Shown here: one piece after another, positions 47,254 to 64,000 of the stretch
Position numbering within the stretch: the first letter of the stretch is position 1
Layout of the letters: every line of letters begins with the position of its first letter
Assembly (NCBI RefSeq): GCF_027271155.1
Contig: NZ_CP114542.1
Location: 558,001-622,000, forward strand
DNA length: 64,000 bases
Reading direction: 5' to 3'
Origin: Brevundimonas subvibrioides
GTDB lineage: Bacteria > Pseudomonadota > Alphaproteobacteria > Caulobacterales > Caulobacteraceae
Position numbers and translations under genes: made by a program
Notes under the pieces: generated by a model
Told to the model about the DNA's origin: nothing
What the model saw: the letters and a program-made list of their open reading frames with translations, nothing else
Databases searched by the model: none

Positions 47254-48440
47254 TCAAAGGCCGGGAACGGCAGACGCGCCCTGCCGCGCCGGCGGGCCAG
47301 CGAAATCGGCTCCGGCGTTTCGGATGATCATCCCGATGCTGGTCGCCGTGAATTGGTACAGTCCGATTTTCAGATGTGGAGGCGCGTGCGGCGGATAATC
47401 GATGTGGGCGTCGCGCTCGCCATTGGCCCCGGGCCAGAAGTTCCAGTCGCTCACGCTGTGTCCCAGGCCGACGAGATCCCGCGTCAGGGCCTCGAGGTCC
47501 GTCTTTCGAAAGATGCACGTGGGCCAGCCATCAATGGTGGCCGTGTTTGAGGACAGGTTGAACTCGGTCGTATGCACTGCAATGCCGCCCGGTTTCAGCA
47601 TCCGCATGGCATTTTTGACGAAGTCGCCGGCGATTTCGATGCCGCCCAGATGTTCGATGGAACAGGACGACCACAAAAAGTCGAAGCCGCCTATGTCGTC
47701 AGGCAGGTCCAGCATGTCGATGGTTCGCGTTTCGACATGGCACCTCATGTCGTCGAGCGAGCAGATGCCCGGCTTGTAGAGCGCCTCGACGGTGTCCGAA
47801 TGCTCGCCAGCGGAGGCCCACATGTCCTTGGCGTCCTGCGGCCCGTCAGACGCCAGGATATCGCAACCCCGCGCGACGAACATGGCGGGCAGAGGCTCGG
47901 TCCCGACGGCGAAAACAAGGCCACGCGCACCCCTTCCGAACAATCCCGCGTCCTCGATGACGCGATAGATGAAACTCCACTCCCAGTATTTGCGGTGCAG
48001 CTCATCAGGCGGAAATCCGGCTGTTTCGCAGAACCTGCGATAGTGCTCCTCGTCGGCCTGGCTGGCCGTGCACATCTGGGAAGAGGGTGACTCGAGGGTC
48101 GGTTCGAAGATTTCTATCCGCCCGTCGATCGCTTCCGGAATGAGAAAGATCGGAATGGCATAGGGTTGGGCGTGGAGCGTGGTGAACTCCCCGGTATTGG
48201 TCAGGGATCGCCTCAAGGCATCCATGTCGGGATTGGTTCGCTGAAGGTCGATCGTGCTCTGCGATTCCGGTTCGCGCGACAGCAGGACACGATAGGCCCA
48301 GCGGACATCTTCCGCGGACAGCCCCGTGAAAGAGGCGAGGCATCCTGCCCGGTGACCGGGGGCAGGGCGTCAGCAGACCCGGCCTCCCCGTCCGTCACCA
48401 CGGCCTCCCTGGCAGAGATGGAATGCAGAGGATCTGGCAT
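47254..48440 (-). pseudogene. DUF4214-like + class I methyltransferase, frameshifted
   Basis: The frame from 48225 downward encodes a methyltransferase domain (GARGLVFAVGTEPLPAMF, DFLWSSCSIEHLGG, MRMLKPGGIAVHTTEF). Upstream of 48225 the same frame stays open with a DUF4214-like module (VRWAYRVLLSREPES ... LRRSLTNTGEF) but has no start codon before a stop. The start (ATG 48440, MPDPLHSISARE) is in another frame. Joining them needs one more T in the TTT at 48331-48329, giving SPLFTGLSAED and a 395-residue protein. So the gene is broken, phase-variable or mis-sequenced. A short product from ATG 48225 would lack the module. Confidence 0.8.
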
Positions 48441-48617
48441 ATTGGCCTGACGGGTGCCGGAGGCTCACGAGGCGAAAGCCAGGGCCGACACTCTGGACGA
48501 CCTGTTCGCCCGCCCTCTTCCGGAGCGCACCCGACCGCCTTCGGTTGCATGTCCCGCTTGGGCGCTGCTGAAGTTCCCCTGCCCCTCGTCGAGGGAGAGA
48601 CGTCTACGAAGGGCCGC

Positions 48618-49265
48618 TCAGCTCTGACGGCTCATCCGGACATAGACCTCGTTCGGGACGATGGTGTCCCAGAGCCTGTAGCCGCGCTCCACCATATAGT
48701 CCCGATAAGCGGGGTCATCGAACAGATTCTCGAGAATCACGACGCGGGGGGCAAAGCGCTCCAGATCGAAGCCGCGCATGACATCCAGCTCCCAGCCTTC
48801 CACGTCGATCGCGAGCAGATCGATGCCGGTCACGTCCGGTGCGAACTCTGCCATCAGGCGATCCAGGCGACGGACCAGAACCGGGATCTGGAATGTCCGG
48901 GTTTCGACCGTCCCGTGCAGCTCGGCGAACTTGTCCCGCAGGCCCAGAGACGAAAACGATTCAAACGTTACGTTGACGCCATGGTAGATCGAGTCCCGGC
49001 TCTCGACGACGGTGAAGCTCGCATCATCGCTATCGTGGTCGCTGCAGGCAAACTGCAGCACGTCATAGCCCCTTTTGCGATGTTCCTCGCAGAAGACCGG
49101 GTTGGGCTCGACCGCCACGATCCGCCAGCCCATGTCGCGAAAACGGCGGCTGATGGACAGGTCGTCCGGATGCGCAGCTCCGATCTCGACCATGACGCCG
49201 GGTGCCGACCCGATCGGAAAATGTGCTTCCTGGACGATCCGGTCGATATCCCCCTCGGCGGACAT
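48618..49265 (-). CDS. FkbM-family methyltransferase
   Basis: The 215 residues have VMVEIGAAHPDDLSISRRF (SAM loop), IVAVEPNPVFCEEHRKRGY (ribose-binding Glu) and LLAIDVEGWELDVMRGFDLERFAPRVVILEN, the IDxEGxE motif that defines FkbM enzymes. These O-methylate sugars of glycans or antibiotics. It is 178 bases from the frameshifted gene and divergent from the next methyltransferase. Confidence 0.88.
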   Translation of the reverse strand: MSAEGDIDRIVQEAHFPIGSAPGVMVEIGAAHPDDLSISRRFRDMGWRIVAVEPNPVFCEEHRKRGYDVLQFACSDHDSDDASFTVVESRDSIYHGVNVTFESFSSLGLRDKFAELHGTVETRTFQIPVLVRRLDRLMAEFAPDVTGIDLLAIDVEGWELDVMRGFDLERFAPRVVILENLFDDPAYRDYMVERGYRLWDTIVPNEVYVRMSRQS

Positions 49266-49419
49266 GGCAGGTCTCCAAGGCTGTCAGCGGCCGGAATCAG
49301 ACAACCCCTTCTAGTCGGCGCAGAGGAGGAAGCAAGCTGCCGCAGCGGGCCGACAGCGCGTGACATCCTCTCTTTTTGGTGTAGTGAGGCCCCCATCTCG
49401 GCTGAACGTAGGGTGGACC

Positions 49420-50529
49420 TTGTCTTTTGATCTGAGCCCCGTTCTGCACGCTGGCAGGACGGCCAACCTGGCCCGTACGCGCGCAGATGGAAAAGTCCTG
49501 GTCAGTATAGGTGCTGCCGGTCAATGGTATTTCGACTGGATCGATGCAACCTGTGGCGCGCCGGCGCGTCATATTGGTGTCGAATACTATTCGGCACCTC
49601 CCGCGGTCCTGCCGGATAACGTGGAGTGGGTCGCCAATACCGCTGGATCGATGCCTGACGTCGAGAGCGGCGTCGCCGATCTGCTGGTGTCGGGCCAGAA
49701 TATCGAACACCTGTGGCAGGAGGAGGTCGCCGGCTTCCTGGCCGAGGCGCACCGGGTGCTCCGCCCCGGCGGCCGCATGATCATCGATAGCCCGAACCGG
49801 GCGATCACACAGATCTACGGCGGCGCCCATCCCGAGCACATGGTCGAACTGACGGTCGACGAGGCCGAGGCGCTGGTGACGGCGGCCGGTTTCGACGTGC
49901 AGCGGGTCGCCGGCATCCTGCTGTGTCGCGACGGGGCGACGGGCGAGGTTTTGCCGATCGATGGCCTGGCGGACATCTCCCCGCCCACCCTGGTCTTCCG
50001 ATCCGTCGCGGCCATCGACGATGCCGAAAACTCCTATCTCTGGTGGATCGAGGCGGTCCGGGCCGACCGGGAGCCCGACATGGCCAGGGTGCAGGAGATC
50101 ATCGCCCGGTACTGGGCGACCGGCTGGCCGGAACGGATGGACCGACTGGTGACCACGATCGGAAAGCCGGAGACCCTGGCCGATGGACGGTTGGCGTGGC
50201 AGTCCGGGATTGGCGATAACGGCCCGTTGTCCTTCGGGCCGTATGCGCCGATCAAGGCGGGGCGGTATCGCACCACATTGAATGTGATGCGCACCACCGA
50301 CATCAAGCCCGGCCAGATCCTGGGCCATGTCGATGTAATTTTCGACGACGGCTCCATCATTGAGTGCCGCACGGAACTGACCGGCAAGATGCTGCCGAAA
50401 GGTGAATGGAAACCGATCACGCTCGAGTTCGAACTCGCGGACATGCGGTTCGGTTTCCAGAACAGGCTCTTCAGCTACGGCGTCGCGGGTCTTCGGGTGG
50501 AGCGGCGTCTGACGTTCACGGCGCCTTGA
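49420..50529 (+). CDS. Methyltransferase with C-terminal beta-sandwich-like module
   Basis: About 369 residues. The N-terminal class I domain is recognisable but divergent: VLVSIGAAGQWYFDWID, VADLLVSGQNIEHLW, HRVLRPGGRMIIDSPNRAI. The C-terminal 110 residues (GPLSFGPYAPIKAGRYRTTLNV ... LPKGEWKPITLEFELADM) resemble the ends of the proteins at 50516 and 56759. TTG 49420 was chosen for the GGGTGG six bases upstream; GTG 49360 has no ribosome site. It overlaps the convergent gene by 14 bases. Confidence 0.82.
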   Translation: MSFDLSPVLHAGRTANLARTRADGKVLVSIGAAGQWYFDWIDATCGAPARHIGVEYYSAPPAVLPDNVEWVANTAGSMPDVESGVADLLVSGQNIEHLWQEEVAGFLAEAHRVLRPGGRMIIDSPNRAITQIYGGAHPEHMVELTVDEAEALVTAAGFDVQRVAGILLCRDGATGEVLPIDGLADISPPTLVFRSVAAIDDAENSYLWWIEAVRADREPDMARVQEIIARYWATGWPERMDRLVTTIGKPETLADGRLAWQSGIGDNGPLSFGPYAPIKAGRYRTTLNVMRTTDIKPGQILGHVDVIFDDGSIIECRTELTGKMLPKGEWKPITLEFELADMRFGFQNRLFSYGVAGLRVERRLTFTAP

Positions 50530-52156
50530 TGATGCGGGCCGCGGCCCGTCGGGGAGCCGTAGACCCCGCCTTGTCCTTGACGGGGCCCACCGGTTCCAGC
50601 CAACGCTCCATCAGCGCGATGCCGCGGACCGCCACATTGCTGGCGGAGTCAGTGATCACCCTGAACTCGGCATTGGTAATGGGCTCGTCCAGGTCGAATT
50701 GAAGGACGATCGGTCGGGGCTCGGCCGAGCGTTTCGGCAAGGTCGTCACGGCCACTGTCTCCTCGACGACCGTCCTTGCCCCGAAGTTTTCAATGACCGC
50801 GCATTCGAGCGTGCCTCTGGCCCTGTCCAGCACAAAGACATCGATCTCGACGCGATAGCGACCGCGCGGCAAGCTGATATAGGGTCCGTAGCAGAGGACG
50901 CCCTTGCGACCGCCCGATATCATGACGGGGTCGGCGTCCTGGCCGATCACCGTGCTGATCGCAGGACCCGCCCATCGACCCGCCTCGACCCAGGAGAAGC
51001 CCTTGTAGCCCGCGTCGCGGAGCCGGGCGGCCAGGTCCCCGCTGGCAGGCCCGTTCAGGACGCCGTCGAGGATCTGCTGCAAGGCGGCCCGCCTCTGGTC
51101 ATAGGCGCTCATCGTGGCATTGGCGGCCGACAGTTGTTTGATTTCCGCGTTCTTGCGGCCGACCTCGTCGTCGTCACGGCCGTAGGCATCTTTCCACATG
51201 TGAATCTGGCGGGAGAGCGCGCCGGATGCGGCGATCGCCTGCTGCTCGACCGCTTTCGAGAACCGCGCGCTGATCGGTGCGGTCCGGGACTTCGGCGTCG
51301 CGGCGGCGAGGGGTTTGCGAAGGGCCAGGTGTATCGGGCAGAACAGAAATCCCTCGTGGAAGATGACGAGGTTGGGAAAGACGTTTTTCTTCTGGTCGAC
51401 GGTCCGGGGTGAACGGACGGTGGATCCGAAATCCTTCAGGACAGCCCGGGCGTCATAGGTCTGGCGAGACAGTTCGAACGTCGGCGCGTCCAGCAACTCC
51501 AGTCCGGATGGCTCCACGATGTATCGCTGGATCATGTCGGGCGTGAGAAGCAGGAAGTCCTCATCAAAGCCGGTCGCCCCGTTCGGGCCTTCCAGCAGGA
51601 ACTCTGCGACGACAGAGGCAACCCCGCCTGGCTTCAGCACACGCCCGATCTCTTCCATCGCGGCGGTCAGGCTGCCGGCCGAGCCCAGTCGGCTGACCTC
51701 GGAGCTGGCGAACACGCCGTCGAAATGGCTGTCGGGTAGCCCGAGGGCGCGGGGGTCCGAGTGAACCGGGATGACGCTGCCACGGGCGAGGGCTCGACGC
51801 GTATACTGCTGCGGCCGCACCATCATGGCCGCCGGCGTCACGTCGGACCGCGGCGTGACCTCGAGATACCGGTCCGCAGCGAACACCATACATCCGCGCT
51901 CGGCGACGGCGAAGGTGGTCGGGCCCGCGCCTGCACCCACACCGCAGATCATGCTGCCGGTCTTCAGAAGACCAGCACCATCGAGCGTCCGGAGCGCCAT
52001 GGCGGTTTCCCAGAGCTTGCAGTCCGGGGTTACGGCTTCGGCGTCGAAGCCGAACTCTAGAGTGTCCTCGAAGGCTGCGGCTTCCAGGTAAGGGCTGAGC
52101 TCAGCGTTCGCAAAATCCTCGATACCGATAATCTTGCTGCGGGGAAGCGTGTCCAT
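50516..52156 (-). CDS. Class I methyltransferase with coiled coil and beta-sandwich-like module
   Basis: The 546 residues have a methyltransferase domain (about 35-240: GSMICGVGAGAGPTTFAVAERG, DSHFDGVFASSEVSRLG, GRVLKPGGVASVVAEF), a helical/coiled-coil region (about 320-380, AEIKQLSAANATMSAYDQRRAA) and a C-terminal module (LCYGPYISLPRGRYRVEIDV ... PRPIVLQFDLDEP) like those at 49420 and 56759. The target is probably a surface glycan. It overlaps the upstream glycosyltransferase by 100 bases in another frame. Confidence 0.85.
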   Translation of the reverse strand: MDTLPRSKIIGIEDFANAELSPYLEAAAFEDTLEFGFDAEAVTPDCKLWETAMALRTLDGAGLLKTGSMICGVGAGAGPTTFAVAERGCMVFAADRYLEVTPRSDVTPAAMMVRPQQYTRRALARGSVIPVHSDPRALGLPDSHFDGVFASSEVSRLGSAGSLTAAMEEIGRVLKPGGVASVVAEFLLEGPNGATGFDEDFLLLTPDMIQRYIVEPSGLELLDAPTFELSRQTYDARAVLKDFGSTVRSPRTVDQKKNVFPNLVIFHEGFLFCPIHLALRKPLAAATPKSRTAPISARFSKAVEQQAIAASGALSRQIHMWKDAYGRDDDEVGRKNAEIKQLSAANATMSAYDQRRAALQQILDGVLNGPASGDLAARLRDAGYKGFSWVEAGRWAGPAISTVIGQDADPVMISGGRKGVLCYGPYISLPRGRYRVEIDVFVLDRARGTLECAVIENFGARTVVEETVAVTTLPKRSAEPRPIVLQFDLDEPITNAEFRVITDSASNVAVRGIALMERWLEPVGPVKDKAGSTAPRRAAARIIKAP

Positions 52157-54573
52157 GGCCTCTTCTTTTTCAGTATGCGTTGCAGGCTGCGATCGCCTCT
52201 ATGGTGTCTCTGGTACTGGGCGTAGGATATGCGCCGCAGCTCGGCAGCGATGTCACGATTGCAGATCGTCTGCAGGACGCCCTGCAGGCCGACCTCGAGC
52301 GACCTGTCCTGAACGACAAGTCGGGGATCGTAGGCATAGCCGCTGTCCTCGTTCACGATCACTGGCCGTCCCATCGACAGGGCGCGGACGAAGATGTGCG
52401 ACAGCTGCCCCCTGATCTGCTTGCGGAAGCAGAAGACCGCGTCGCACATGGCGATCTCGGCATCGAAGTCATCCTCCAGCACGGGATTGGAGTGAATCAG
52501 GCGCGATGCAATGCCCAGTCGAGCGAACTGGGCCCTCGCGTCGTCGAACAACTTCTGGTCGATAATCTTGCCCGAAAGGACGAAGAAAAGTCTGCGCGCC
52601 TCGCCTTCGGCCTTTTTCCGGGCGATGAATCGGGCCGTGACGTCGATGATCTCGGCCAGGCGCTTGATGTCATTCAGGATCAATCCAAAATGTCCCAGCA
52701 CGATGTCGTCCGCCTGGACGCCGTGGCGACGCCGCGCGGCCTGCGCAGCCCTGGCTACGGCCGGCCCTCCGCGGGGATCAATCCCCAGCGGCACGAAGGC
52801 GAACGATCCCTCGAGTTCGTCCAGGTCGTTCTGAAGTTCGCTGTCGGCCTGTCGGGCCTCATGCATCTTTGCCAGGACAGGCTTGGGCAGGTGCGAGACC
52901 ATGGTGATGGGCCTGGCGACCAACCAGTCCGGCGAAAGCGCGGGCCGGCTCTTCTCGGCCGTCTCCCGCTTGTTGACCAGGTGCGACAGGGCCAGATCGG
53001 TCGCCGCAGCCGAGGTGGCCCGCTCAGAGCTGCGGGGCAAGCTGAGCGCCAGGTCGTCGAGCTCGCCCTTCTGCGCCTTGAAGTGCCAGAGCCCGGGCAC
53101 ATAGGCCCGCTCGTGAATCAGCAGGACGTCGCTCGCCTGGGCATGGGCTTGCAGTAGCTCGATGCCCGGATAGAGGGCCTGGGAGAAGGCCAGGTTGAAC
53201 AGTCCCGGCACGCCGGGATGCCGTTTCTGGAAATTCTCGTATTCGCCGTGCGCCGCCAGCCTGACGTTCGGTGTATGCGAAACCGTCTTCTGGTCTCCCT
53301 CGGAGAAAAACAGGACGACGTTGGAGGGTGTGCTGCGGACATAGCAGAGTGAGTAGTCGGCCACGCCGCAGAAGCTGCCCGGGATCGAGGAAAAGATCTT
53401 GAACTGAACATCCGAGAACCAGCGGGCGCTGGCATCGACTGCCGACTGAAGGGCACGATCCGCCACGGTGGCGGAGTCCCGCCAATGCCCGAGATAGTAG
53501 GACCGCACGTCGTCGAAATAGCCGGGATCGGGGTCCATCTGCAGGAACGCCGAGAACGTCTCGATCGGCAGCACCTGGTTGTCGGCGTCCAGCCAGAACA
53601 CCGCACCGGCGTCGCTCCGGTCGCTCTTGCCAAGGATCTCCCGGTTCATCGGAATATCGAGCACGATGACCTTGCGCCGCAGGAAGATGGCCTCGAGCAG
53701 CGGAATACCGAATCCTTCCTCCAGCGACAGGTGAGAGATGACGTGCGCGCGGGACTGGAGTTCCAGCTTCTCGACCTCGGTGACCGAATAGGTCGCCTCG
53801 ATGCCCTTCAGCAGCCCGGCATCCTTGAGGTGTTCGAACTGGTCCTTCGTCGGCGCGTTCACCCGGACAGCGGCCACGCCGGCATCGACGATGTCGCGAT
53901 ACATGCGAATGGCGACGTCGGGGTTCTTGGACCTGTGCCCCCCCACCATTCCGAACAGATAGGGCGCATCTTCCTCCCCGTCGTTCGTATCGGTCCACGT
54001 CTCGTAGATCGAATCCAGGCGGGGAGAAATGACGCTGATGGCCTCCGGGGCCAGCCCCAGGAACTGCGCAGCCTCGAGGGCCACTGTTTCCGAGATCGAG
54101 ATGACGTGGTCCGCCTTCAGAACCCGCGACAGGCCGTTGTAGTAGATTTCAACGACGACCTCGTTGGTGATGTAGTCGTGGAGCAGCTTCAGCGGAATGA
54201 AGTCGTAACAGATCGTGACGACCGGACAGGCCAGCAGGTCGAACCGCATCGGTGACAGAAAGGGAGTGGCATCGACGTAGAGGTCGAAGCCGTCGAGGGC
54301 GACCAGCTTCGAAAGGAAGGTGGTGAAGTTGTGGGCGTCGCGGTATCGCAGGTCCGTCGTCGGCGCCAGGGTTTCCACATTGTAGTTGGCATACCTGATG
54401 CCGCAGGCCTGCAGCAGGGGCGACGATCGTTCCAGATGGCAGTCCTGAAACAGAAGCACGCAGACCTCATGGCCCTTGCTCTGCAGCAGATCGATGACGT
54501 GATCGACATAGCGGCCCATACCGCGATCATAGGCGCCCGAAGAATAGACGCGGCCGTCGACCAGAACCTTCAT
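52057..54573 (-). CDS. Tandem-domain glycosyltransferase (GT4-like)
   Basis: The 838-residue protein has two glycosyltransferase-like halves. Half 1 (about 1-370) starts KVLVDGRVYSSGAYDRGMGRYVDHVIDLL and has the EX7E motif in LSLEEGFGIPLLEAIFL. Half 2 (about 385-790) starts SSIPGSFCGVADYS and ends near VRALSMGRPVIVNEDSGY. Such enzymes add two sugars in repeat synthesis. The last 33 residues are encoded inside the next gene and look unlike GT sequence. An A-run at 52170-52166 marks where a one-base shift would fuse both genes. Confidence 0.87.
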   Translation of the reverse strand: MKVLVDGRVYSSGAYDRGMGRYVDHVIDLLQSKGHEVCVLLFQDCHLERSSPLLQACGIRYANYNVETLAPTTDLRYRDAHNFTTFLSKLVALDGFDLYVDATPFLSPMRFDLLACPVVTICYDFIPLKLLHDYITNEVVVEIYYNGLSRVLKADHVISISETVALEAAQFLGLAPEAISVISPRLDSIYETWTDTNDGEEDAPYLFGMVGGHRSKNPDVAIRMYRDIVDAGVAAVRVNAPTKDQFEHLKDAGLLKGIEATYSVTEVEKLELQSRAHVISHLSLEEGFGIPLLEAIFLRRKVIVLDIPMNREILGKSDRSDAGAVFWLDADNQVLPIETFSAFLQMDPDPGYFDDVRSYYLGHWRDSATVADRALQSAVDASARWFSDVQFKIFSSIPGSFCGVADYSLCYVRSTPSNVVLFFSEGDQKTVSHTPNVRLAAHGEYENFQKRHPGVPGLFNLAFSQALYPGIELLQAHAQASDVLLIHERAYVPGLWHFKAQKGELDDLALSLPRSSERATSAAATDLALSHLVNKRETAEKSRPALSPDWLVARPITMVSHLPKPVLAKMHEARQADSELQNDLDELEGSFAFVPLGIDPRGGPAVARAAQAARRRHGVQADDIVLGHFGLILNDIKRLAEIIDVTARFIARKKAEGEARRLFFVLSGKIIDQKLFDDARAQFARLGIASRLIHSNPVLEDDFDAEIAMCDAVFCFRKQIRGQLSHIFVRALSMGRPVIVNEDSGYAYDPRLVVQDRSLEVGLQGVLQTICNRDIAAELRRISYAQYQRHHRGDRSLQRILKKKRPWTRFPAARLSVSRILRTLSSALTWKPQPSRTL

Positions 54574-55451
54574 GGCCGGGGCCCCGCCGTCGTATCGCCC
54601 TTACCCAGGTCCGGCGGGCCGAGGGTTTCCGACAAACGTTCGAAAGCGGATTGCGCGATACCGAGCGCCTCGGTCCGGATCAGGTCCATCTGACTGCGCT
54701 GGAGCGTGATCAGGTCGTTCTGATGATGGAAGGCGCCCGTCAGTTCGTCGATCCGCATCTGCAGGGCGACGACGGCGCACGGCGTGAAATTATCGAACAG
54801 GCAGGGTGGCAGGGCGAATGCCGCCAGTCGGTCGGCATCCTCGTCGCGGACGTAGTAGCGGTTCAGTCCGTCGAAATAGGCAAACAGATAGTCGGCCGCG
54901 AGGATGAGCGGCTCCACGGTTGACCAGGCGGCGCGTTGACTGAACGGCTCCGTCGCTTCCAGGACAATGATCCGCGGACGGTAGACCTTGAAATCGGTAC
55001 TGGCGACGATCAGGTGCTCGGCACCCTCGGCGTCGATCTTCAGAAAATCGACACAGGCATCGCCGACGAATTCGTTCCAGATGGAATCAAGCCGCCGCGT
55101 CTCGACGCTGATGTCTCGTCGGGGTGCCGGATTGAGGGCGATCACCTCCGGTTCATGGTCGGCGAGATGTGACAGACCGGTCCCTTCCACGACGTGGAAG
55201 ACAGCGCTGGCGTCCGCGTCGCTGACGGCGCAGGCAAGGGTAATGTCGCGCGGCCGCGCAGCGACAAGCCTTTCGGCGAACTCCGGGTTGGGCTCGATGT
55301 TGATGCCGCGCCAGCCCATTGCGTAGAAAGCGTTTGTCACGGACAGCTCGACCGGGTCCCACGCCCCGATGTCGATGTAGAAACCGGTGTCGATATCCTG
55401 GAGGGCGCGTCTCAGCATGACGTCCTCGAAATTCTGGGCGTATGTCACCAT
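54570..55451 (-). CDS. FkbM-family methyltransferase
   Basis: The 293 residues begin MVTYAQNFEDVMLRRAL, a start typical of one FkbM branch, then GFYIDIGAWDPVELSVTNAF, GINIEPNPEFAERL and VDFLKIDAEGAEHLIVAS (the IDxEGxE motif). The C-terminal 50 residues (MRIDELTGAFHHQNDLITLQ) are a probable coiled coil. Its stop overlaps the start of the big glycosyltransferase by four bases, so FkbM, GT and methyltransferase are one operon. The longer frame to 55514 was rejected. Confidence 0.9.
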   Translation of the reverse strand: MVTYAQNFEDVMLRRALQDIDTGFYIDIGAWDPVELSVTNAFYAMGWRGINIEPNPEFAERLVAARPRDITLACAVSDADASAVFHVVEGTGLSHLADHEPEVIALNPAPRRDISVETRRLDSIWNEFVGDACVDFLKIDAEGAEHLIVASTDFKVYRPRIIVLEATEPFSQRAAWSTVEPLILAADYLFAYFDGLNRYYVRDEDADRLAAFALPPCLFDNFTPCAVVALQMRIDELTGAFHHQNDLITLQRSQMDLIRTEALGIAQSAFERLSETLGPPDLGKGDTTAGPRP

Positions 55452-55818
55452 GGCCGGAAGATAGCCGCCGCCTGGCGTGACCAACGGCTCCAGCTCAGCC
55501 GTCGTTTGCCTCACTGCCCCGCACCCGCGAGGCCGGTGCGCAGCGAGCCTCCTGTCTTGCTCGTCCTGGGAGTCACGGAAGTCCCCTCGCCACGGCCCCT
55601 GCCTGAGAAAGGCGTCCTACAGCCCTTGCCCGCGTCGTCAAGAAAGGTTTTTTCCGGCAGCCGACGCGACCGGGGAATGCAGGACCGCGCGTTGCACGCA
55701 AGGCCTGCATCAGATCGGCAGAACGACAAAAAATCGGACTTTCGGACACCCTTGGCTTGAGATAGGTCGAGTGCTCGGCACACGGCTCCGGACGGGGTCG
55801 GCGAGAGGGCAGGCGGTA
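55452..55818. promoter_or_regulatory. Divergent promoter region between two FkbM genes
   Basis: No convincing gene is found in these 367 bases. A locally AT-rich part near 55640-55750 (including a TTTTTT at 55648-55653 and AAAAAA at 55729-55734) probably holds promoters for both directions. Small frames here have poor codon bias. Confidence 0.4.
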
Positions 55819-56724
55819 ATGAATCTCAAGGCCTACAGGCAGTACGTCCACACTTTGAGGTCGCTGTATCGCCAGTACGGCGTTGCGGATGAGGAAACGC
55901 GCGCAACCATCCCTGCGGTTGCAACCCTGACGGCGGCGTCTGACCAGAAGCGTCTGGAACTGCTCGCCGAATCGACGCGGACTCGTATCGCGCGCCTGAG
56001 TCCCAATCTGGCTGGCCAGTTGCTGGCGGAGCCCTCGATTCGCCACCTGACCTTCGGCGACATCGCCTTTTCGGTGCCGATCATCAACGAACAGGGCGTC
56101 GAATGGTACGGGTCGGCACCACCCGAGAATTTCGACTTCACGATCGAGCGCAGCATCGGCCTTCTGGATGACGCCAAGGTCATCTACGACTTTGGCGGCC
56201 ATCATGGGGTCTGGGCCGCCTATTATGCGCGGATCGTGGGCGATGGCGGCTTCGTCTATTCGTTCGAGCCGTCGATGATCAACGTCGAGGTGTCGGCGCT
56301 TCTGTTCCTGCTGAATGGCATCTCCAATGTGGTGAACATCGGCGCGGCCGTGGGGACGATGACCGATCACGACGGTGCCGAGGGCAGCAGCGCCGGCATG
56401 TTGGTCGATTTCGTCGAGCAAATGCGGGTGATCGACGTCCGGTCGCTGGCCTGGCGCTACGGCGATTTCATGAAAATGGACATCGAGGGGTTCGAGTACG
56501 ATTTGCTGACCCGATTCCCCTGGCTGTTCGATCTGGCCACCCATATTCATCTGGAACTGCACATTCCGCATCTGGAGCGGCGCGGCCTCGATTACCGCGA
56601 TGTGACGGCCCTTCTGCCGTTCGAGCAGTTCGAGATCCACAACTCCGAGGGGGGCGTGCTGCAGCTCGTGACACGGGATACGCCGTTGTCGGGCTACTGC
56701 AGCCTCATGATGCGGCGGCTCTGA
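55819..56724 (+). CDS. FkbM-family methyltransferase
   Basis: The 301 residues include KVIYDFGGHHGVWAAYYARI, FVYSFEPSMINVEVSALLFL, GDFMKMDIEGFEYDLLTRFPWLF (the MDxEGxE motif) and CSLMMRRL at the end. The N terminus (1-100) is a helical extension beginning MNLKAYRQYVHTLRSLYRQYG. It starts the rightward half of the island and is 34 bases from the next gene. Confidence 0.88.
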   Translation: MNLKAYRQYVHTLRSLYRQYGVADEETRATIPAVATLTAASDQKRLELLAESTRTRIARLSPNLAGQLLAEPSIRHLTFGDIAFSVPIINEQGVEWYGSAPPENFDFTIERSIGLLDDAKVIYDFGGHHGVWAAYYARIVGDGGFVYSFEPSMINVEVSALLFLLNGISNVVNIGAAVGTMTDHDGAEGSSAGMLVDFVEQMRVIDVRSLAWRYGDFMKMDIEGFEYDLLTRFPWLFDLATHIHLELHIPHLERRGLDYRDVTALLPFEQFEIHNSEGGVLQLVTRDTPLSGYCSLMMRRL

Positions 56725-56758
56725 CCCCCTCCATTTCGCCGGGCCCCGGGAGAATTCG

Positions 56759-57826
56759 TTGCTGATCGAGTCGAGCGAGATTCTGACGACCTGCATGGCC
56801 GCGCTGCTCCGCAGACTGAAGGTCGCGGGTCGGACCGTCCTGCATCTCGAGTCCGCGGGCGATATCGGATCCACCGCCTTCAATCGGCAGGCCGACGATC
56901 GGGCCCGTCATCTGGACGTCCGGGAGGACGACAGCAAACGCGCTGACGAGGGCTGGATTGGACGCGATCGCGACGGCCGGTTTGACGCGCAGGCGAGCAC
57001 GATCGACATCCTCTGGGTCGGCCATTGGCTCGAACGTCTATGGCCCGAGCAGATCATCGTCTTCCTTTCGGAAGCCAGACGGCTCCTTCGCCCCGGGGGA
57101 GTGATGATTCTGGCGGGCACCAACCGGCAGGTTGCGGGCACCTTGGCACGGCCGGCGCGACCGGTTGAACTGACCTGGGCCGAAGCCGTGGCGTTGATCC
57201 AGAGTGCAGGCTTCGACATCACGCGTCCCAAGGGTTTGCTGCTGGCGCGCGGCCCGGACGGGGAGCCTCTTGAGCCATGCCATGAGTCTTCGGCTGCGGT
57301 CTTCGACATGGTCACCCGGGCTGTGGCGGGCGCCGACGCACCGGAACGCTCGCTGGCCTGGTGGGCCGAAGTCCGGCCCTCCGAACGCCCCGCCGATGTG
57401 GAGCGCATGGACGTGCTGTTGCAGCGCGCCGGAGCCGCAACGGCCAGCAACAATCTCGCCCTGCCCGACAGGGGCGTGGCCGGCTTGCCCGCTGGCACAA
57501 TGCGGGTCGGACGCAGCCTGCCCCTTCGGGCCGGGCGCTACCGCGCAACCGTTCAGGTCCAGAGGGTCGGCAAGGCGAACGATCCGTCCGCAGGCGTGAT
57601 CGAGGCGTGTATCGGGGGCGACGACGTCGTAGCCCGCACGTCAATCGATGGGGCCCGTCTGGCGAACCGGGCGTGGGTGCCGATCGATCTCGAGTTCGAA
57701 CTGGCGCGCCCGGTAGACGAGTTCGATGTTCGATTCACGCTGGCCGGTCAGGGGGAGATTCGTGTCCGTCCGGAGCTGACCGTGGCCTCGATCTTCTGGA
57801 AGCCCATGCAGGGCGCCAGGGCATGA
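56759..57826 (+). CDS. Degenerate methyltransferase with beta-sandwich-like module
   Basis: The 355-residue protein has a poorly conserved class I domain (ILWVGHWLERLWPEQIIVFLSEARRLLRPGGVMILAG, then LIQSAGFDITRPKG); the SAM glycine loop is degraded (LHLESAGDIG). The C-terminal module (LPLRAGRYRATVQVQ, WVPIDLEFELARP) matches the ends of the proteins at 49420 and 50516. TTG 56759 is supported by CGGGAGA upstream. Activity is uncertain; it may be a partner or glycan-binding subunit. Confidence 0.75.
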   Translation: MLIESSEILTTCMAALLRRLKVAGRTVLHLESAGDIGSTAFNRQADDRARHLDVREDDSKRADEGWIGRDRDGRFDAQASTIDILWVGHWLERLWPEQIIVFLSEARRLLRPGGVMILAGTNRQVAGTLARPARPVELTWAEAVALIQSAGFDITRPKGLLLARGPDGEPLEPCHESSAAVFDMVTRAVAGADAPERSLAWWAEVRPSERPADVERMDVLLQRAGAATASNNLALPDRGVAGLPAGTMRVGRSLPLRAGRYRATVQVQRVGKANDPSAGVIEACIGGDDVVARTSIDGARLANRAWVPIDLEFELARPVDEFDVRFTLAGQGEIRVRPELTVASIFWKPMQGARA

Positions 57827-57877
57827 GCCGATGCGTCTCCGCCATGCGCTGATCGCCCGTGGATACGGCGTCTGTGG

Positions 57878-57906: not shown

Positions 57907-57942
57907 CTAACTGAAAAAATCCAGACAGCGTCCAAGGAATAT

Positions 57943-59181
57943 ATGATGAGAGGCAGCTATACTCGCCTTGAGGCTTGCCGTGTGAGTGGGAGTCGCAATC
58001 TCATTCCAGTACTCCACCTCGGTGAACAAGAATTGACGGGTGTGTTTCCTCGCCCGGGTGATGCAGTGACGTCGGGTCCTCTTGAACTTGTCTGGTGCCC
58101 CGACAGTGGTCTTCTGCAACTGGGTCACAGCTTCGATCCAGGCGAAATGTATGGCGAGAACTATGGATATCGTTCTGGCCTGAACGCCTCGATGGTCCGT
58201 CACCTTACTCAGAAGATCGGATTTCTTGAGAAGCTGGTCGATCTCAAGCCTGGCGATACTGTTCTGGATATCGGCTCAAACGATGCCACGTCTTTGAAGG
58301 CTTACTCTACGTCTGGGCTGACCCGCATCGGGATCGACCCGACGGGGGCCAAATTCAAGGAATATTATCCGGACGACATCCGGTTGATTCCGGATTTCTT
58401 CTCGGCCGAGAATTTCCGCAAGGCTGGCGGAGACCGGGCCCAGATCGTGACGTCGATCGCGATGTTCTATGATCTGGACAATCCGATCGCCTTCGCCCGG
58501 GACATCGCCTCCGTGCTCGCGCCTGATGGTGTCTGGCATTTCGAGCAGAGCTACATGCCTGCCATGCTGCGGACCGTGTCCTATGACACCATCTGCCATG
58601 AGCATCTCGAATACTACTCGCTGGGCGTCGTGCAGAAGATCCTGGATGCAGCCGGGCTGCGCCTGATCGATGTCCAGATGAACAGTGTCAACGGCGGCAG
58701 TTTCGCCGTCACCGCCGGTCACAAGGCGTCCCGGCGACGCGCCAACGACGCCGTGATCGATTGGCTGCTCGGACAGGAAGACCGGATGGGCCTCAACACG
58801 GTGCGTCCGTTCCGCGAATTCGAGGATCGGGTGTTCCGTCACAAGGCCGATCTGGTGCGGTTGCTCCAGGCGCTGGCCGCCGATGGCAAGAAGGTCCTGG
58901 GGTATGGAGCGTCGACCAAGGGCAATGTGACCCTTCAGTTCTGCGGGATCACAGAAAAGGAAGTCCCAGCCATCGCGGAGGTGAATCCCGAGAAGTTCGG
59001 ACGCGTCACGCCGGGCACGCGCATTCCGATCATCTCCGAGGCAGAGGCCAGAGCCATGAATCCGGATTACTATCTGGTCCTGCCGTGGCACTTCAAGGAA
59101 GGTATCCTCCAGCGGGAGCAGGAGTATATCGCCAAGGGCGGCAAGTTCATCTTCCCCTTCCCGGAGATCGAGATCGTCTGA
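57943..59181 (+). CDS. Deoxysugar C-methyltransferase (TylCIII/NovU-like)
   Basis: The 412 residues have the three-part structure of NDP-hexose C-methyltransferases. The N-terminal zinc-binding-type region here has few cysteines (EACR, VWCPDSG); the SAM domain has DTVLDIGSNDATSLKAYS, HFEQSYMPAMLRTVSYDTICHEHLEYYSL and the C-terminal domain GYGASTKGNVTLQFCGI. The CHEHLEYYS motif holds the catalytic His/Glu. It makes C-branched methyl sugars. The first 130 codons have a much weaker G/C third-position bias than the rest, a mosaic pattern. Confidence 0.92.
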   Translation: MMRGSYTRLEACRVSGSRNLIPVLHLGEQELTGVFPRPGDAVTSGPLELVWCPDSGLLQLGHSFDPGEMYGENYGYRSGLNASMVRHLTQKIGFLEKLVDLKPGDTVLDIGSNDATSLKAYSTSGLTRIGIDPTGAKFKEYYPDDIRLIPDFFSAENFRKAGGDRAQIVTSIAMFYDLDNPIAFARDIASVLAPDGVWHFEQSYMPAMLRTVSYDTICHEHLEYYSLGVVQKILDAAGLRLIDVQMNSVNGGSFAVTAGHKASRRRANDAVIDWLLGQEDRMGLNTVRPFREFEDRVFRHKADLVRLLQALAADGKKVLGYGASTKGNVTLQFCGITEKEVPAIAEVNPEKFGRVTPGTRIPIISEAEARAMNPDYYLVLPWHFKEGILQREQEYIAKGGKFIFPFPEIEIV

Positions 59182-59272
59182 CCGGGACGGGCCGCCCTGC
59201 CCATCCGCCCGTCGTCCAGCCGGGACGCCGGGCCGCGGCCCGGAGGCGTAGTCGTTTCTCATCGGACAGGAC

Positions 59273-61657
59273 ATGATGGCCAGTCGACAGCCCCAGATCC
59301 TATACGTTGACGCCCGCGCCCTGCAGGACGACAATTATCGTTTCCGGGGCGTGGGTCAGCATTCCGCGGCCATCCTGCAGGCGATCCGGCGGTTTGCCTG
59401 GCCAGGGGGCCGTCCCAGGATCGTGGGCGTCATCGATCCCCTCCTGCCGCTGCTGCATCCTGTTCACGATCTGCTTTTTGACGAGATCACGACCCTGAAG
59501 CGGGCGCGGAAGGGAGACGGACCCGGCTGGTTCGTCAGTCTTTCGCCCCTGACTCACGATCCGATGAAGATCAGCGGCTTCCTGCTGGATCCCGATCTGT
59601 ACCGCATCTGTCTCTTCTATGACCTCATTCCGCTCGATTTCCCCGAGCGCTATCTGATGGATCCGGCCGCGCGTTCGGACTACCTCATCGCCCTTGCGTG
59701 GCTACGCCGCTTCGATTTGTTCGCGTCGATCTCCGACTTCAGCGCCCGGGCCCTCATCGCCCGGACCGGCGTGGACCCGGCACGGGTGTTCGTGTCGAAC
59801 GTCGCCGTCCGGAGTGCGCTGTTGCCGCGCGAGGACGATCCATTCATTCCCCATGAGAAGCGCGGGCACATCGTCGTCGCCGGCGGTGGTGATCCGCGCA
59901 AGAATCCGGAATGCGGGCTGGTGGCCCATGCCTCGTCGGCCCTGCTAAGGCGCCACGGTGTCTCCATCTCGGTCTTCGGCGCCTATCCCGAGCCTATGCG
60001 CGACGATCTGAGAACCCGCTACCGCCAGGCCGGTGGGCGTCCCCAGGACCTCACCTTCCACGCCCATCTGTCGGACGAGGCGCTGCGGGCCCTCTACCGA
60101 TCCAGCCTGGTGACCGTCGTGCCGTCGCGCGCGGAGGGCTTTTCGATCCCGATCGTCGAGAGCAGCGCGGCCGGAACGCCGGTTCTCGCCTCCGACGTCG
60201 GGGCCCACCCTGAGCTCGCGCGCGATCCCGACTGGCGGTTCGGTCCCGACGACGTGGACAGGCTGAGGGGGCAGCTCGAGCGGCTGGTCGAGGATCCGGA
60301 ATCCTGGGATGGTCTGCGTCGGGCCCAGACGGATCTGTGGCGGGCCTATACCGTGGAGGCGGTCGGCCAGCGGTTCATGGAGGGTGTTCTGGCGCGCGCG
60401 AGCGAGCGCGTCACGGATGCGACACGTCCCGGCAGCCCGGCGGTCCAGCGCGGGGCACGTCCCAGGATCGCCGTGCTCAGTCCCCTGCCACCGGCCCAGT
60501 CTGGCGTCGCTGACTACACGGCCTTGACGCTGGCTCCGCTCAAGGCCGTGGCCGACCTGCATATGTTCACCCCGACCGCAGATGCCCGCTGGGAAGAGGG
60601 TTGGGCGTCATTGCAGCCTGTTGCGGCGGCCGGGATCAGCCCGATCCGGTTCGACGCCACGATCAGCGTCATCGGCAACTCGGACCATCACGTCGAGATC
60701 CTGGACTTTCTCCTTGAGAACGGCGGCGGGTGCATCGCTCACGATGCCCGCATGATCAACTTCTACTATCTGCTGCGCGGCGTACCAGAGGCCGTGCAAC
60801 TCGCCTCCGACGAGATGGCCCGGCCGGTGGATCAGGCCGAGGTGACGCGGTGGCTGCACAACCAGCGCGACCTCCCGACCCTGTTCCTGTCCGAGGTGGC
60901 TCGGGCAAGCGAACCCCTGATGGTGCATTCGCAGACCACTGCGGCCGAGATCGCGCGGCTCTATGGAAAGACTCCGCGCCTGCTGCCCTTCGCCCAATAC
61001 CGCCCGTCCCTGTTGCACCGGCTGAAGCGCGCGGATCGGGACAGGGCCCGCAAGGCGCTGGGGATTCCGACGGATCGGGTCGTGCTGGTGACCTTCGGCA
61101 TCGTGAGCGAGGACAAGGCTCCTCTCGAACTGATCTGGGCGCTGAACATGCTGAGGAGCTGGGGCGTCGACGCGGAACTCGTGTTCTGCGGGCGCAATCA
61201 GCACATGAAGACCCAGGTGGGCACCCTTGCGAGCCAGCTGGGCCTTGCCCCCTTCATCCGGACGTTTGAGACGGCGATCGACGACGCGACCTACGACAGC
61301 TATCTGATCGCCGCCGATATCGGGGTGCAGCTGCGGACCTATCAGATGGGCGGCCTCTCGGGCGCGCTCAACGACTGCATTTCGGCGGCGCTGCCATCGA
61401 TCGCCAACGCCCACCTTGCCGAGGCGATGCAAGCCCCCGATTTCGTGAAGCGCGTGCCGGACGGCCTGTCGTCCCTGCTCATCGCCGAAGCGGCCCTGGC
61501 CATACTCTCGGAGACCAGAAGCGGTACTCGCCCGGTCGCCCAGGCCCGGGCGTTTGCGGAAACGCGTTCGCCCGTTGGCTACTGCCAGGCCCTGCTGGGA
61601 CATCTGGACATCGACATCGACGTCAAGGCGGCGATGGTGGCTGCCGGACAGGGCTGA
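59273..61657 (+). CDS. Tandem-domain glycosyltransferase (GT4-like)
   Basis: The 794-residue protein has two GT halves. Half 1 has FRGVGQHSAAILQAIRR, a donor-binding EX7E region SRAEGFSIPIVESSAAGTPVLAS. Half 2 starts VLSPLPPAQSGVADYTALTL and ends YQMGGLSGALNDCISAALPSI. Its plan and the SGVADY motif match the protein at 52057, so they are paralogues, one in each half of the island. ATG 59273 (or 59276) follows GGACAGGAC. A GC-rich palindrome (CCGGGCC-GC-GGCCCGG, 59228-59243) lies just upstream. Confidence 0.87.
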   Translation: MMASRQPQILYVDARALQDDNYRFRGVGQHSAAILQAIRRFAWPGGRPRIVGVIDPLLPLLHPVHDLLFDEITTLKRARKGDGPGWFVSLSPLTHDPMKISGFLLDPDLYRICLFYDLIPLDFPERYLMDPAARSDYLIALAWLRRFDLFASISDFSARALIARTGVDPARVFVSNVAVRSALLPREDDPFIPHEKRGHIVVAGGGDPRKNPECGLVAHASSALLRRHGVSISVFGAYPEPMRDDLRTRYRQAGGRPQDLTFHAHLSDEALRALYRSSLVTVVPSRAEGFSIPIVESSAAGTPVLASDVGAHPELARDPDWRFGPDDVDRLRGQLERLVEDPESWDGLRRAQTDLWRAYTVEAVGQRFMEGVLARASERVTDATRPGSPAVQRGARPRIAVLSPLPPAQSGVADYTALTLAPLKAVADLHMFTPTADARWEEGWASLQPVAAAGISPIRFDATISVIGNSDHHVEILDFLLENGGGCIAHDARMINFYYLLRGVPEAVQLASDEMARPVDQAEVTRWLHNQRDLPTLFLSEVARASEPLMVHSQTTAAEIARLYGKTPRLLPFAQYRPSLLHRLKRADRDRARKALGIPTDRVVLVTFGIVSEDKAPLELIWALNMLRSWGVDAELVFCGRNQHMKTQVGTLASQLGLAPFIRTFETAIDDATYDSYLIAADIGVQLRTYQMGGLSGALNDCISAALPSIANAHLAEAMQAPDFVKRVPDGLSSLLIAEAALAILSETRSGTRPVAQARAFAETRSPVGYCQALLGHLDIDIDVKAAMVAAGQG

Positions 61658-62781
61658 TGGGCTCGCTCCTGATCGACGTCACGGAGTTCGTCACCAACCC
61701 TATCCGGACCGGGATCCAGCGCGTCATCCGCGAGCTTCTGGGGCGGTGGCCGGCCGATATCCCGCGCCGGGTCGTCTGGTTCGACGAGCGGGCAGGTGGG
61801 CTTGTGCCAGTCCGCGACGCACTTCTCGCCTACCTGATCGACAGTCCCGGCGATCCGGTGCTGGACGGCGAACAGACGCGGCGCAAAAGCCTCGAGTTTC
61901 TGGCATCGGAGACCACGCCGCCCCTCGACCTGCGCCGCGAGGATCGCGTTCTGGTGCCTGAACTGTTCGCCTCGCGCGCCCGGGCCCTGTTCTACAGGCG
62001 CCTGAAGGGTCGAAACATCTCCATCCGCGCCATTGTCTACGACATCCTTGCGTGGACACAGCCGGATGCACTCAACATTACGACCGTCGGGCCGTTCAAC
62101 GATTATCTCGAGTTCCTGAAGGTGACGGACGCCCGCTGCCACATCTCCAGCGCGGTGCGGGATGCCTATACGCAGAGGGTCCTGCGACGCCCGGGCACGC
62201 CGGATACCGTCATCGTGCTCGGGGCCGATGCGCTCGGCCGCAGATCTGCCGACCTGCCGGTCCTCCCACAGCTGCTGTGCCCCGGGGCCCTGGACGGCCG
62301 CAAGGGACAGGACCGGATCTTCGCCGCCTATATGGCGATATCCGAAGACGCCCGGCTGCCGCTCATCATCGCCGGCCGCGTCCCTCCGGAGCCGCGCGAG
62401 TCCATCCGCCGCATCCTGGACTCGTCCTGCCCCACCGTATCGGTCATCGACGATCCCGACGACGCCCGCCTGTCACGGCTGATCGCATCCTCGCAGGGCT
62501 GCCTGTTTCCCAGCCAGTTCGAGGGGTTCGGCCTGCCGGCGCTGGAGAGCCTGTATCTGGGAACGCCGGTCGTCATCGACGCGAACCTGCCGGCCGTCTC
62601 CGGTCTGCCGGCTGCGGGCCAGATCCGACTGGAACGTCAGACCCACGACGACCTGGTACGGGCACTGCTGCAGATCAGCGATCCCGCATCGGCCAAAGTC
62701 TTGCGTCAGGCCGCCGCAACGCTGCAACTGCCCACCTGGGACGACTATGCCAGCCAGGTCGCCGTCTGGGCCAGCCAATGA
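61657..62781 (+). CDS. GT4 glycosyltransferase
   Basis: The 374-residue GT-B enzyme starts SLLIDVTEFVTNPIRTGIQRVIREL, the opening seen in one group of polysaccharide GTs, and has the donor motif FPSQFEGFGLPALESLYLGTPVV (EX7E). The ATG overlaps the upstream stop by one base (TGATG). It probably adds one sugar of the same glycan. Confidence 0.9.
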   Translation: MGSLLIDVTEFVTNPIRTGIQRVIRELLGRWPADIPRRVVWFDERAGGLVPVRDALLAYLIDSPGDPVLDGEQTRRKSLEFLASETTPPLDLRREDRVLVPELFASRARALFYRRLKGRNISIRAIVYDILAWTQPDALNITTVGPFNDYLEFLKVTDARCHISSAVRDAYTQRVLRRPGTPDTVIVLGADALGRRSADLPVLPQLLCPGALDGRKGQDRIFAAYMAISEDARLPLIIAGRVPPEPRESIRRILDSSCPTVSVIDDPDDARLSRLIASSQGCLFPSQFEGFGLPALESLYLGTPVVIDANLPAVSGLPAAGQIRLERQTHDDLVRALLQISDPASAKVLRQAAATLQLPTWDDYASQVAVWASQ

Positions 62782-62818
62782 CAGGCCGGGCCCAGACCAC
62801 ACCTTCGGGGGACGTACA

Positions 62819-63532
62819 ATGCTGAAGAAGCGCATCAAGAGGGCTCTGCGAGCCATCGGCCTGTTGAAGCCGCACCAGGGGGCGACGCCCGGAAAACGCG
62901 GTCGACCGAACCAGATGCAGGCGCAGTCCATCGTGGGCCAGCTCTATCAGGTCGTGCTCAAACGTGACCCGGGAACGGCGGAGCGGGACGGCTACGCCCG
63001 CGCGCTCGCATCCGGCGAATTGTCGGTCCCGCAGGTCGTCGAAGCGCTGATTGGGTCAGGCGAGTTCGGCAGCGCCTTCACCCGGCATGCGAATGTGGCC
63101 GAAGCCCTGGCCGCGGCGGTGCTCGGCACCCTCGCGCGGGTGACGGATGACGCAGCCATCCTGACCTATTCATCCGGGCTCATGGGCTCGATGCCGCTCA
63201 CCGACTTTTTGCGCGAGATTTGCGAGTCGCCGGATTTCCGCTCGACCTGGGGCGTCGGGGGGGCGGCGAGCGGCGGTGCGAGGGCCGTGACGTCAAAAGG
63301 GTTGGCATCCAGCGCGACGGTGACCGTGCCGGGCGGACTGGGCGAAATGGTGGAAGGTCTCATTGCTGCGCGGATGATCGGCCAGGGGACGGTCCTGGGC
63401 TTGCCGCCGATCCGCGATTTCGACCGTCCTCCGATCCCGCTCGGTCATCTGGTGGCGCTTATCCGCACGCTCGACATGCTGGGAGATGGAGAGGCGGCCA
63501 GACCCGCGTCTGGTGTGTCTCAGCCCGCGTGA
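62819..63532 (+). CDS. DUF4214-like domain protein
   Basis: The 237-residue protein begins MLKKRIKRALRAIGLL (basic helix). IVGQLYQVVLKRDPGTAERDGYARALASGELSVPQVVEALIGSGEF is a clear DUF4214-like module; a partial second repeat (LTDFLREICESPDFRSTW) follows. Function unknown; such modules are frequent in glycan loci and S-layer-type proteins. A similar module is in the broken gene at 47254. GGGGGA precedes ATG 62819. It overlaps the convergent epimerase by 13 bases. Confidence 0.8.
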   Translation: MLKKRIKRALRAIGLLKPHQGATPGKRGRPNQMQAQSIVGQLYQVVLKRDPGTAERDGYARALASGELSVPQVVEALIGSGEFGSAFTRHANVAEALAAAVLGTLARVTDDAAILTYSSGLMGSMPLTDFLREICESPDFRSTWGVGGAASGGARAVTSKGLASSATVTVPGGLGEMVEGLIAARMIGQGTVLGLPPIRDFDRPPIPLGHLVALIRTLDMLGDGEAARPASGVSQPA

Positions 63533-64000
63533 TGCCGGTCGCGCGCGTGCTGAAGCACGTCGCTCAGCATCGTGTCCATCGACCGCGTCGGTGCCCATCC
63601 GGTGAGGCTTCGCAGCCTTGCCGAGCTGATGCTGGCCACCGGAATGTCGGCGCTTCGGAACCGGTCCGGATCCACAACGACGCGCGCCTTGCTGCCTGCC
63701 AGTTCGATCATCCGGTCCAGTAACACGCCGACGCTTCGCGATTCGCCCGAGCAGACATTCAGGGTGGTCCGGTTGCCGAAGTGCGCCAGCTCGCTCAGCA
63801 CGGCGACATAGGCATCGACGACGTCGTCGACGTGGAGAAAATCCCGGCGAGCCTCCAGGTTTCCCACGCGAATTTCATCCTGGCCCGACATGATCTGTTC
63901 GGCGAAGGATGGCAGTGCGAACTTGACCTCCTGGCCCGCACCGCTGTGGTTGGAGGGTCGGCATACGATCAGCTGCGACGTGGCTGGAAGAACGTCGTTG
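63520..64000 (-). CDS. GDP-deoxyhexose epimerase/reductase (SDR), 5' end cut off
   Basis: The visible 160 codons are the C-terminal half of an extended SDR enzyme close to GDP-6-deoxy-D-lyxo-4-hexulose reductase (Rmd) or GDP-mannose 4,6-dehydratase. Marks are ICVCRPSNHSG-like VCRPSNHSGAGQEVKFALPSF, RVGNLEARRDFLHVDDVVDAYV and TLNVCSGESRSV. The frame is open through the window edge. A GDP-rhamnose or GDP-deoxytalose route would supply the sugar that the GTs and methyltransferases use. The N-terminal NAD motif lies outside. Confidence 0.88.
   Translation of the reverse strand, partial: NDVLPATSQLIVCRPSNHSGAGQEVKFALPSFAEQIMSGQDEIRVGNLEARRDFLHVDDVVDAYVAVLSELAHFGNRTTLNVCSGESRSVGVLLDRMIELAGSKARVVVDPDRFRSADIPVASISSARLRSLTGWAPTRSMDTMLSDVLQHARDRHHAG

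Follow-up and report, generated by a model that had tools for sequence, protein, structure and literature searches.

The window analyzed here is a 64,000-nucleotide stretch of Brevundimonas subvibrioides DNA (positions 558001-622000 of contig C1, the one contig of the 2.97 Mb genome, G000), and its last part, 47254-64000, is an island of glycan genes. The island encodes three FkbM methyltransferases, an NDP-hexose 3-C-methyltransferase-like protein (CMT), four class I methyltransferase-like proteins (MT1 to MT4), two long glycosyltransferases, a GT4 glycosyltransferase, a DUF4214 protein and a short-chain dehydrogenase/reductase (SDR). An earlier note, made from the sequence of the window, listed these genes and proposed that they build a surface polysaccharide with several C- and O-methyl groups. 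Pfam and NCBIfam searches bear out the gene list, and the genes present, together with the neighboring KpsM-, KpsE- and KpsT-like, OPX, GMD and second SDR genes, give good support to a polysaccharide carrying C- and O-methyl groups. The eight methyltransferase genes are all present, but probably not all of them encode working enzymes. The whole locus is larger than the note states, from 42.7 kb in the window to C1:627.4 kb. The note missed the export genes, a domain common to MT2, MT3, MT4 and the neighbor of KpsT, and the GDP-sugar context of CMT.

The class I proteins are in different states of preservation. MT1 (47254-48225, minus strand; PF08241 at 22.6 bits, cut-off 21.2) has a VGTEPLP-type motif I, and its methyltransferase part is open. 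It is the gene that had been called frameshifted: an N-terminal stretch upstream, in frame in the sister-species genome of the same genus (G435), is out of frame here, with no in-frame start codon. That stretch looks DUF4214-like by eye only; Pfam does not call DUF4214 there. MT2 (49420-50529, plus strand, TTG start inferred; PF08241 E 1.1e-7, searched as 49360-50529) has an atypical motif I. MT3 (50516-52156, minus strand; PF08241 and PF13649 above cut-off) keeps an intact S-adenosylmethionine (SAM) loop, GVGAGAG, of the GxGxG type. MT4 (56759-57826, plus strand), a paralogue of MT2, accounts for the worn SAM loop of the note. Its class I methyltransferase score is below cut-off, and the motif I region is degenerate in both species (LHLESAGDIG here, LHLDSPVVSG in G435). 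Its ratio of nonsynonymous to synonymous substitution rates (dN/dS) against G435, 0.245, is the highest among 11 island genes, yet still indicates constraint; MT4 is probably a conserved pseudo-methyltransferase. All three FkbM proteins match PF05050 above the curated cut-off: FkbM1 (48618-49265, minus strand; E 6.5e-22, with TIGR01444), FkbM2 (54570-55514, minus strand; E 2e-26) and FkbM3 (55819-56724, plus strand; E 6e-7, with TIGR01444 at 41.2 bits, cut-off 37.7).

The long glycosyltransferases had both been described as tandem enzymes. This fits GTt2 (59273-61657, plus strand, 794 residues), which has two Pfam GT1 stretches with PF00534 in both, but not GTt1 (52057-54573, minus strand, 838 residues), whose first half is GT4-like (PF00534, PF13439) and whose second half matches no Pfam family. 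CMT (57943-59181, plus strand) lies before GTt2, and the GT4 enzyme (61657-62781, plus strand; PF00534, PF13692) and the DUF4214 protein (62747-63532, plus strand; PF13946 at 26.0 bits, cut-off 23.2) follow it. The window ends within the SDR gene (3' part at 63520-64000, minus strand, the gene running to about C1:622482; PF01370/PF16363), which we label RMD-like.

The export genes flank the island. On one side is the OPX gene (42714-43871, plus strand; Poly_export and SLBB, PF02563 E 6e-17), one of two Poly_export matches in the genome, separated from the island by the housekeeping genes dapD, HAD and argB. On the other, past the window and on the minus strand, the order is SDR, GMD, XP (C1:623859-624686), KpsT, KpsE and KpsM (to C1:627408), where XP denotes the protein encoded directly downstream of kpsT. 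The KpsE-like protein matches TIGR01010 at E 1e-78 (264.7 bits, below the NCBIfam cut-off of 437.5), the KpsM-like protein is found at E 2e-29 (103.4 bits, below the NCBIfam cut-off of 300), and the KpsT-like protein, an ABC ATPase of 223 residues, is identified as ABC_tran only. KpsM, KpsT, KpsE and OPX components of a KpsMTE export system are thus all present. The genome also has one gene with the two-domain match pattern of KpsC and two single-domain copies of Capsule_synth (PF05159), as seen from the Pfam pattern alone. The single-domain copies (C1:650037-650885 and 2897951-2898799) have identical scores and the same translation start, 2.2 Mb apart.

The methyltransferases and the exporter share a domain that we call GPY, with the consensus GPY..L..G.(Y/W). 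It is the C-terminal stretch of about 105 residues of MT2 (50194-50510, plus strand), of MT3, where it follows a linker (50597-50923, minus strand), and of MT4 (57479-57790, plus strand), and it forms the C-terminus of XP. By hhalign, MT3 matches MT2 at E 5e-6 and MT2 matches MT4 at E 3e-9. With a profile built from 20 XP C-termini, MT3 comes up at E 1e-5 and the MT3 of G435 at 3e-4 against 721 sequences; against 29,452 sequences, half of them reversed and some repeated, the XP-only profile finds MT3 at E 4e-4, and none of 1000 shuffles reached the MT3 score. MT2 and MT4 are tied to XP only through MT3, MT4 being linked by way of MT2. In the other direction, a GPY profile of methyltransferases only places 12 XPs, 2 XP-like proteins and 2 glycosyltransferases ahead of the first reversed decoy (E 0.22). 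Pfam searches at E up to 5, with filters that drop most matches above 0.1, gave no family for the MT3 domain or for three XPs.

Where else does GPY occur? Carriers include a GT4-TPR protein of B. diminuta ATCC 11568 (L134), an annotated sulfotransferase of Azospirillum sp. TSH100 with GPY at its end (L209:3051-4262), and two sugar-binding-region glycosyltransferases encoded side by side next to a KpsT locus of Bombella pluederhausensis, one with a single GPY copy and the other with two (L186:10692-13581; the sugar-binding-region family was checked for the second protein). Two short proteins, coiled-coil-looking by eye, also carry it (L120 and L127). Whichever of three profiles was used, each of these six proteins scored above all 500 shuffles. 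XP-like carriers come from Pannonibacter, Roseibium and Rhizobium deserti, from two Phyllobacterium plasmids, and from two more genomes of the class, one near KpsM/E/T (L202) and one near a CMT gene (L203). The N-termini of the rhizobial XP-like proteins resemble, by eye only, degenerate relatives of an enzyme such as the Azospirillum sulfotransferase. GPY was found in 4 of 53 other loci from the KpsT search. A 7-row profile found it in our genome only, among 337 class genomes, and a 16-row profile in at least 4 of 385, our own included; both counts are lower bounds, at most 12-14 candidates per genome having been scored. We regard GPY as a domain family, without a Pfam match where searched, on methyltransferases, glycosyltransferases, a sulfotransferase and XP; in our favored reading it binds glycan.

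XP itself is a regular neighbor of the transporter. It has a match in 54 of the 101 genus genomes (our own included), and in the best 20 of these loci, which include our own and G435, KpsT and KpsE lie beside it in every case. A search with KpsT gave 27 loci whose KpsT is 62-81% identical to ours, 21 titled Brevundimonas and six from metagenome-assembled genomes with broader or other labels (one Afipia); the set may omit records of our own or a very near genome. The XP profile matches in 22 of the 27, on the opposite strand in L129 and in two pieces in L132. The median identity to our proteins is 30.5% for XP (22 loci), against 70.8% for KpsT (27), 56.5% for KpsE (27) and 54.2% for KpsM (26). 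XP is far more divergent than the transporter, as expected of a part that tracks a variable glycan.

How might these parts work together? The explanation we favor, to which we would give about an even chance, is that the island serves as the glycan-specific cassette in a capsule-type locus of Brevundimonas that exports through an ABC transporter (KpsMTE) and OPX, with XP as a GPY-bearing reader at export. GMD, CMT and the RMD-like SDR would most likely produce a GDP-6-deoxy-3-C-methylhexose, evalose- or virenose-like, and GTt1, GTt2 and GT4 would assemble the chain. The FkbM and class I methyltransferases would add O-methyl groups to the chain, probably close to its growing end, though whether the methyl groups lie on inner residues or at the chain end is not readable from sequence. 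GPY of MT2, MT3 and MT4 would hold the glycan, so that MT2 and MT3 could methylate while held on the chain and MT4 would hold it without catalysis. XP would then read the completed chain on behalf of the transporter ATPase, which itself lacks a carbohydrate-binding domain. The genome has no match to the Wzt_C domain (PF14524), and XP is therefore a natural candidate for the role of chain-end reader. If this is right, capsule systems with a plain KpsT would have a separate recognition subunit, and GPY would be the domain by which glycan-modifying enzymes and exporter recognize the same polymer. A stricter form, which we consider doubtful, is a write-and-read checkpoint: GPY methyltransferases would cap the chain end, the dead MT4 would hold it, and the detached reader XP would let KpsMT export only finished chains. 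Such a checkpoint, if true, would supply the length control for which, in ABC-dependent capsules, a 2025 review describes the factor as still unidentified (PMC12220298).

The strongest competitor, a real possibility though less probable than the cassette with an XP reader, is an ordinary variable capsule cassette, in which the methyltransferases simply modify residues, while GPY serves for generic docking, oligomerization or membrane contact and reads no chain end. Multi-methylated surface glycans are found in rhizobia, as in the O antigen of R. etli, a case on which our literature search turned up no paper. The spread of GPY over several unrelated enzymes is as a generic dock would have it, and GPY was not found in two MT3 homologues on rhizobial plasmids. 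This absence is one of a number of observations that weaken the case for XP and GPY as glycan readers. The MT3 of G435 is found only at E 0.013 with the XP profile against the 29,452 sequences; with that profile alone, MT2 is equaled by 1 and MT4 by 61 of 1000 shuffles; and our own XP aligns with the methyltransferase domains at hhalign probabilities of at most 14%. Neither MT3 nor XP matched the solved carbohydrate-binding modules by sequence. XP is missing from five of the 27 KpsT loci (L122, L124, L126, L130 and L133), and 47 of the 101 genus genomes have no XP match. Known KpsMT capsules, moreover, are exported as glycolipid, and the available part of the review describes no far-end reading (PMC12220298). 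Against a mere dock stand the failure of the three XPs to match any Pfam family, and the position of XP next to KpsT in all 20 loci examined together with a divergence far faster than that of the transporter, which a dock need not show. Even if GPY were a mere dock, it would be a domain that has no Pfam match where searched and that recurs on enzymes of three kinds, methyltransferases, glycosyltransferases and one sulfotransferase.

The reader role proposed for XP invites comparison with terminated O antigens. There, a carbohydrate-binding module (CBM) on the ABC ATPase reads the chain end, and the K. pneumoniae O7 terminator (ORF6) has a predicted CBM-like domain (PMC11231755). The WbdD-type terminators of E. 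coli O9a and K. pneumoniae O3/O5, and O7 ORF6, resemble the present locus in combining a SAM methyltransferase with multi-module glycosyltransferases and an ABC exporter. MT3 has the N-terminal SAM methyltransferase with GxGxG, but not the kinase domain of the O9a/O3 type: a Pfam search of MT3 gave no kinase family, and we therefore do not file MT3 as WbdD. Nor did the search for PF14524 in the genome reveal a partner Wzt with a C-terminal CBM; in this locus GPY is carried instead by three methyltransferases and by XP, a protein of its own encoded next to KpsT. The export machinery is like that of the group 2-type KpsMTE capsules in its KpsM-, KpsE- and KpsT-like, OPX and KpsC-like proteins, and differs in the extra protein XP directly after KpsT; XP is not known as a part of the E. 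coli KpsMTE system. XP, the GPY domain, the loss of the MT4 loop and the GDP context of CMT are the new points.

Might the product be a lipopolysaccharide O antigen, or a glycan linked to an S-layer or RTX protein, rather than a Kdo-linked capsule? The genes just beyond KpsM encode two long RTX-type proteins, a protein like mannose-1-phosphate guanylyltransferase (ManC) and ABC proteins like those of type I secretion; we assigned these labels, and the RMD label as well, by reading or inference. In Caulobacter the S-layer binds O antigen (PMC6978808), and the lipid linker of our glycan is unreadable from sequence. We consider this alternative unlikely, as the transporter genes are KpsM/E-like, a KpsC-like protein is present and no Wzt_C domain was found in the genome.

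What sugar would CMT make? The three-part architecture PF08421-PF13489-PF08484 is complete in CMT (PF08484 at E 3.5e-55), which matches the 3-C-methyltransferases MtmC and TcaB9 over nearly its full length; the best PDB match is the D-mycarose 3-C-methyltransferase 4rv9 (MtmC), with which it has an HEH stretch in common. A four-cysteine zinc site is a hallmark of PF08421. CMT lacks CxxC, and six genus relatives at about 30% identity each have two CxxC pairs. The second and fourth zinc cysteines are missing in CMT and in six homologues at 70-73%, and the third also in that of R. jaguaris. Because the zinc-site cysteines are incomplete, we describe CMT as a diverged relative and not a canonical member of the C-methyltransferase family. 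A further difference from TylC3, MtmC and TcaB9 is the company it keeps: in four of six loci read for homologues at 70% or above, a ManC, GMD or RMD-like gene is in the same stretch. Since CMT is usually near GDP-mannose genes, its sugar is probably GDP-linked, and the likely substrate is GDP-4-keto-6-deoxymannose. The other two close loci (Rhodovastum and G247) have no GDP-mannose gene in the stretch examined. A 51% relative in Streptomyces adjoins a dTDP-4-dehydrorhamnose epimerase gene, so remoter members of the family may use TDP sugars, and a Sinorhizobium 3-C-methyltransferase is listed with CDP-glucose genes (PMC4053727). These cases count against a GDP-linked sugar. For the virenose of Coxiella lipopolysaccharide, a GDP route of GMD, C3-methylation and reduction by an RMD-type 4-ketoreductase was proposed in silico beside a TDP route (PMC3539893); D-evalose is 3-C-methyl-D-rhamnose (PMC12961483). 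Our locus has genes that would provide the same steps. If the GDP assignment is right, the locus points to the genes by which alphaproteobacteria could make GDP-linked 3-C-methyl sugars. In G247, from another alphaproteobacterial family, a GPY protein lies less than 3 kb downstream of the 73% CMT homologue (L203:3464-8520), a second link between the CMT and GPY families.

The note would be refuted if no relative kept the genes together; one sister species does, and parts of the set recur together in other orders. From before argB to past KpsM, G435 is collinear with our genome in three long aligned pieces; the island aligns as a single 18.4 kb piece at 85.6% identity. All island proteins have near-full-length G435 homologues by tblastn, at identities of 98% (CMT), 94% (GTt1), 93% (FkbM1), 91% (MT2 and GT4), 89% (GTt2 and FkbM3, the latter 88.6% by tblastn), 88% (MT1 and MT3), 86% (FkbM2), 80% (the DUF4214 protein) and 74% (MT4). 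The island frames are open there, FkbM3 from the same ATG. Across 11 island genes, FkbM3 not among them, dN/dS runs from 0.024 (CMT) to 0.245 (MT4), and is 0.06-0.08 in the neighboring RMD-like and GMD genes. A decaying island, with the MT1 N-terminal frame break and the worn, fastest-evolving MT4 as genes drifting out of use, is very improbable and was rejected on this collinearity, on the open frames (that of the 88.6% identical FkbM3 included) and on dN/dS values all at or below 0.25.

Within the genus the island is rare. At E 1e-3, GTt1 has matches in 16 of the 101 genomes; CMT has them in 8, with close matches to either only in G000 and G435; the other six CMT matches are at 27-32%. When MT3 was searched in 61 relatives and in 337 class genomes, nothing beyond short or weak matches came up apart from MT3 itself, and a scan of genome contigs with GTt1 gave 71 stretches that fit the pattern, none confirmed by tblastn. 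Among 72,556 plasmid records, GTt1 is found at E<1e-20 in two, from Phyllobacterium zundukense (L204) and Rhizobium jaguaris (L205), at 44-46% and near full length. Both plasmids also have homologues of MT3 (45-48%, N-terminal part), FkbM2 (44-45%), CMT (71-73%), as well as an ABC ATPase 31-34% identical to KpsT; the Phyllobacterium plasmid adds MT1 (41%), and that of R. jaguaris adds FkbM1 (51%), GMD (72%) and SDR (33%). MT2 gave nothing beyond short partial matches among the plasmid records. CMT at 70% or above is in five of them. Azospirillum oryzae has the order ManC, CMT, RMD-like SDR (37%), GTt2 (34%) and GT4-like (25%), and TSH100 has SDR, GTt2 and GT4-like genes together, 13 kb from ManC and CMT; the GTt2 homologues on both CMT-bearing Azospirillum plasmids are at about 34%. 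Parts thus recur as sets, GTt1-MT3-FkbM2-CMT in rhizobia and CMT-SDR-GTt2-GT4 in Azospirillum, and the window therefore looks like two modules joined, one of rhizobial type for methylation and one of Azospirillum type for a C-methyl sugar.

Is the island unusually rich in methyltransferases? When 125 genes of 9 other KpsT loci were scanned against Pfam, no methyltransferase family was among the 25 commonest listed (down to 3 members), and 15 of the genes match Glyco_trans_1_4. The 125 were picked from 168 genes that a crude gene caller had found in 12 loci, with genes above 900 residues or containing N excluded, so that the comparison is a rough one; only the Pfam count was used, because profiles derived from our own proteins undercount methyltransferases in other loci. 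By this rough comparison, the methyltransferase richness of the island exceeds chance expectation. A search of mainly open literature found nothing on this Brevundimonas locus, XP, being nameless, not having been searched by name; PMC13001222 gave no hit for methyl, perosamine, methyltransferase or wzt. Right after the OPX gene, at 43882-44502, is an open frame of 206 residues with no Pfam match. Finally, argB is in the same stretch as KpsT in 8 of the 27 KpsT loci and dapD in 7, many stretches being short (examples are L120, L119 and L127). Their neighborhood may therefore be a recurrent capsule insertion site.

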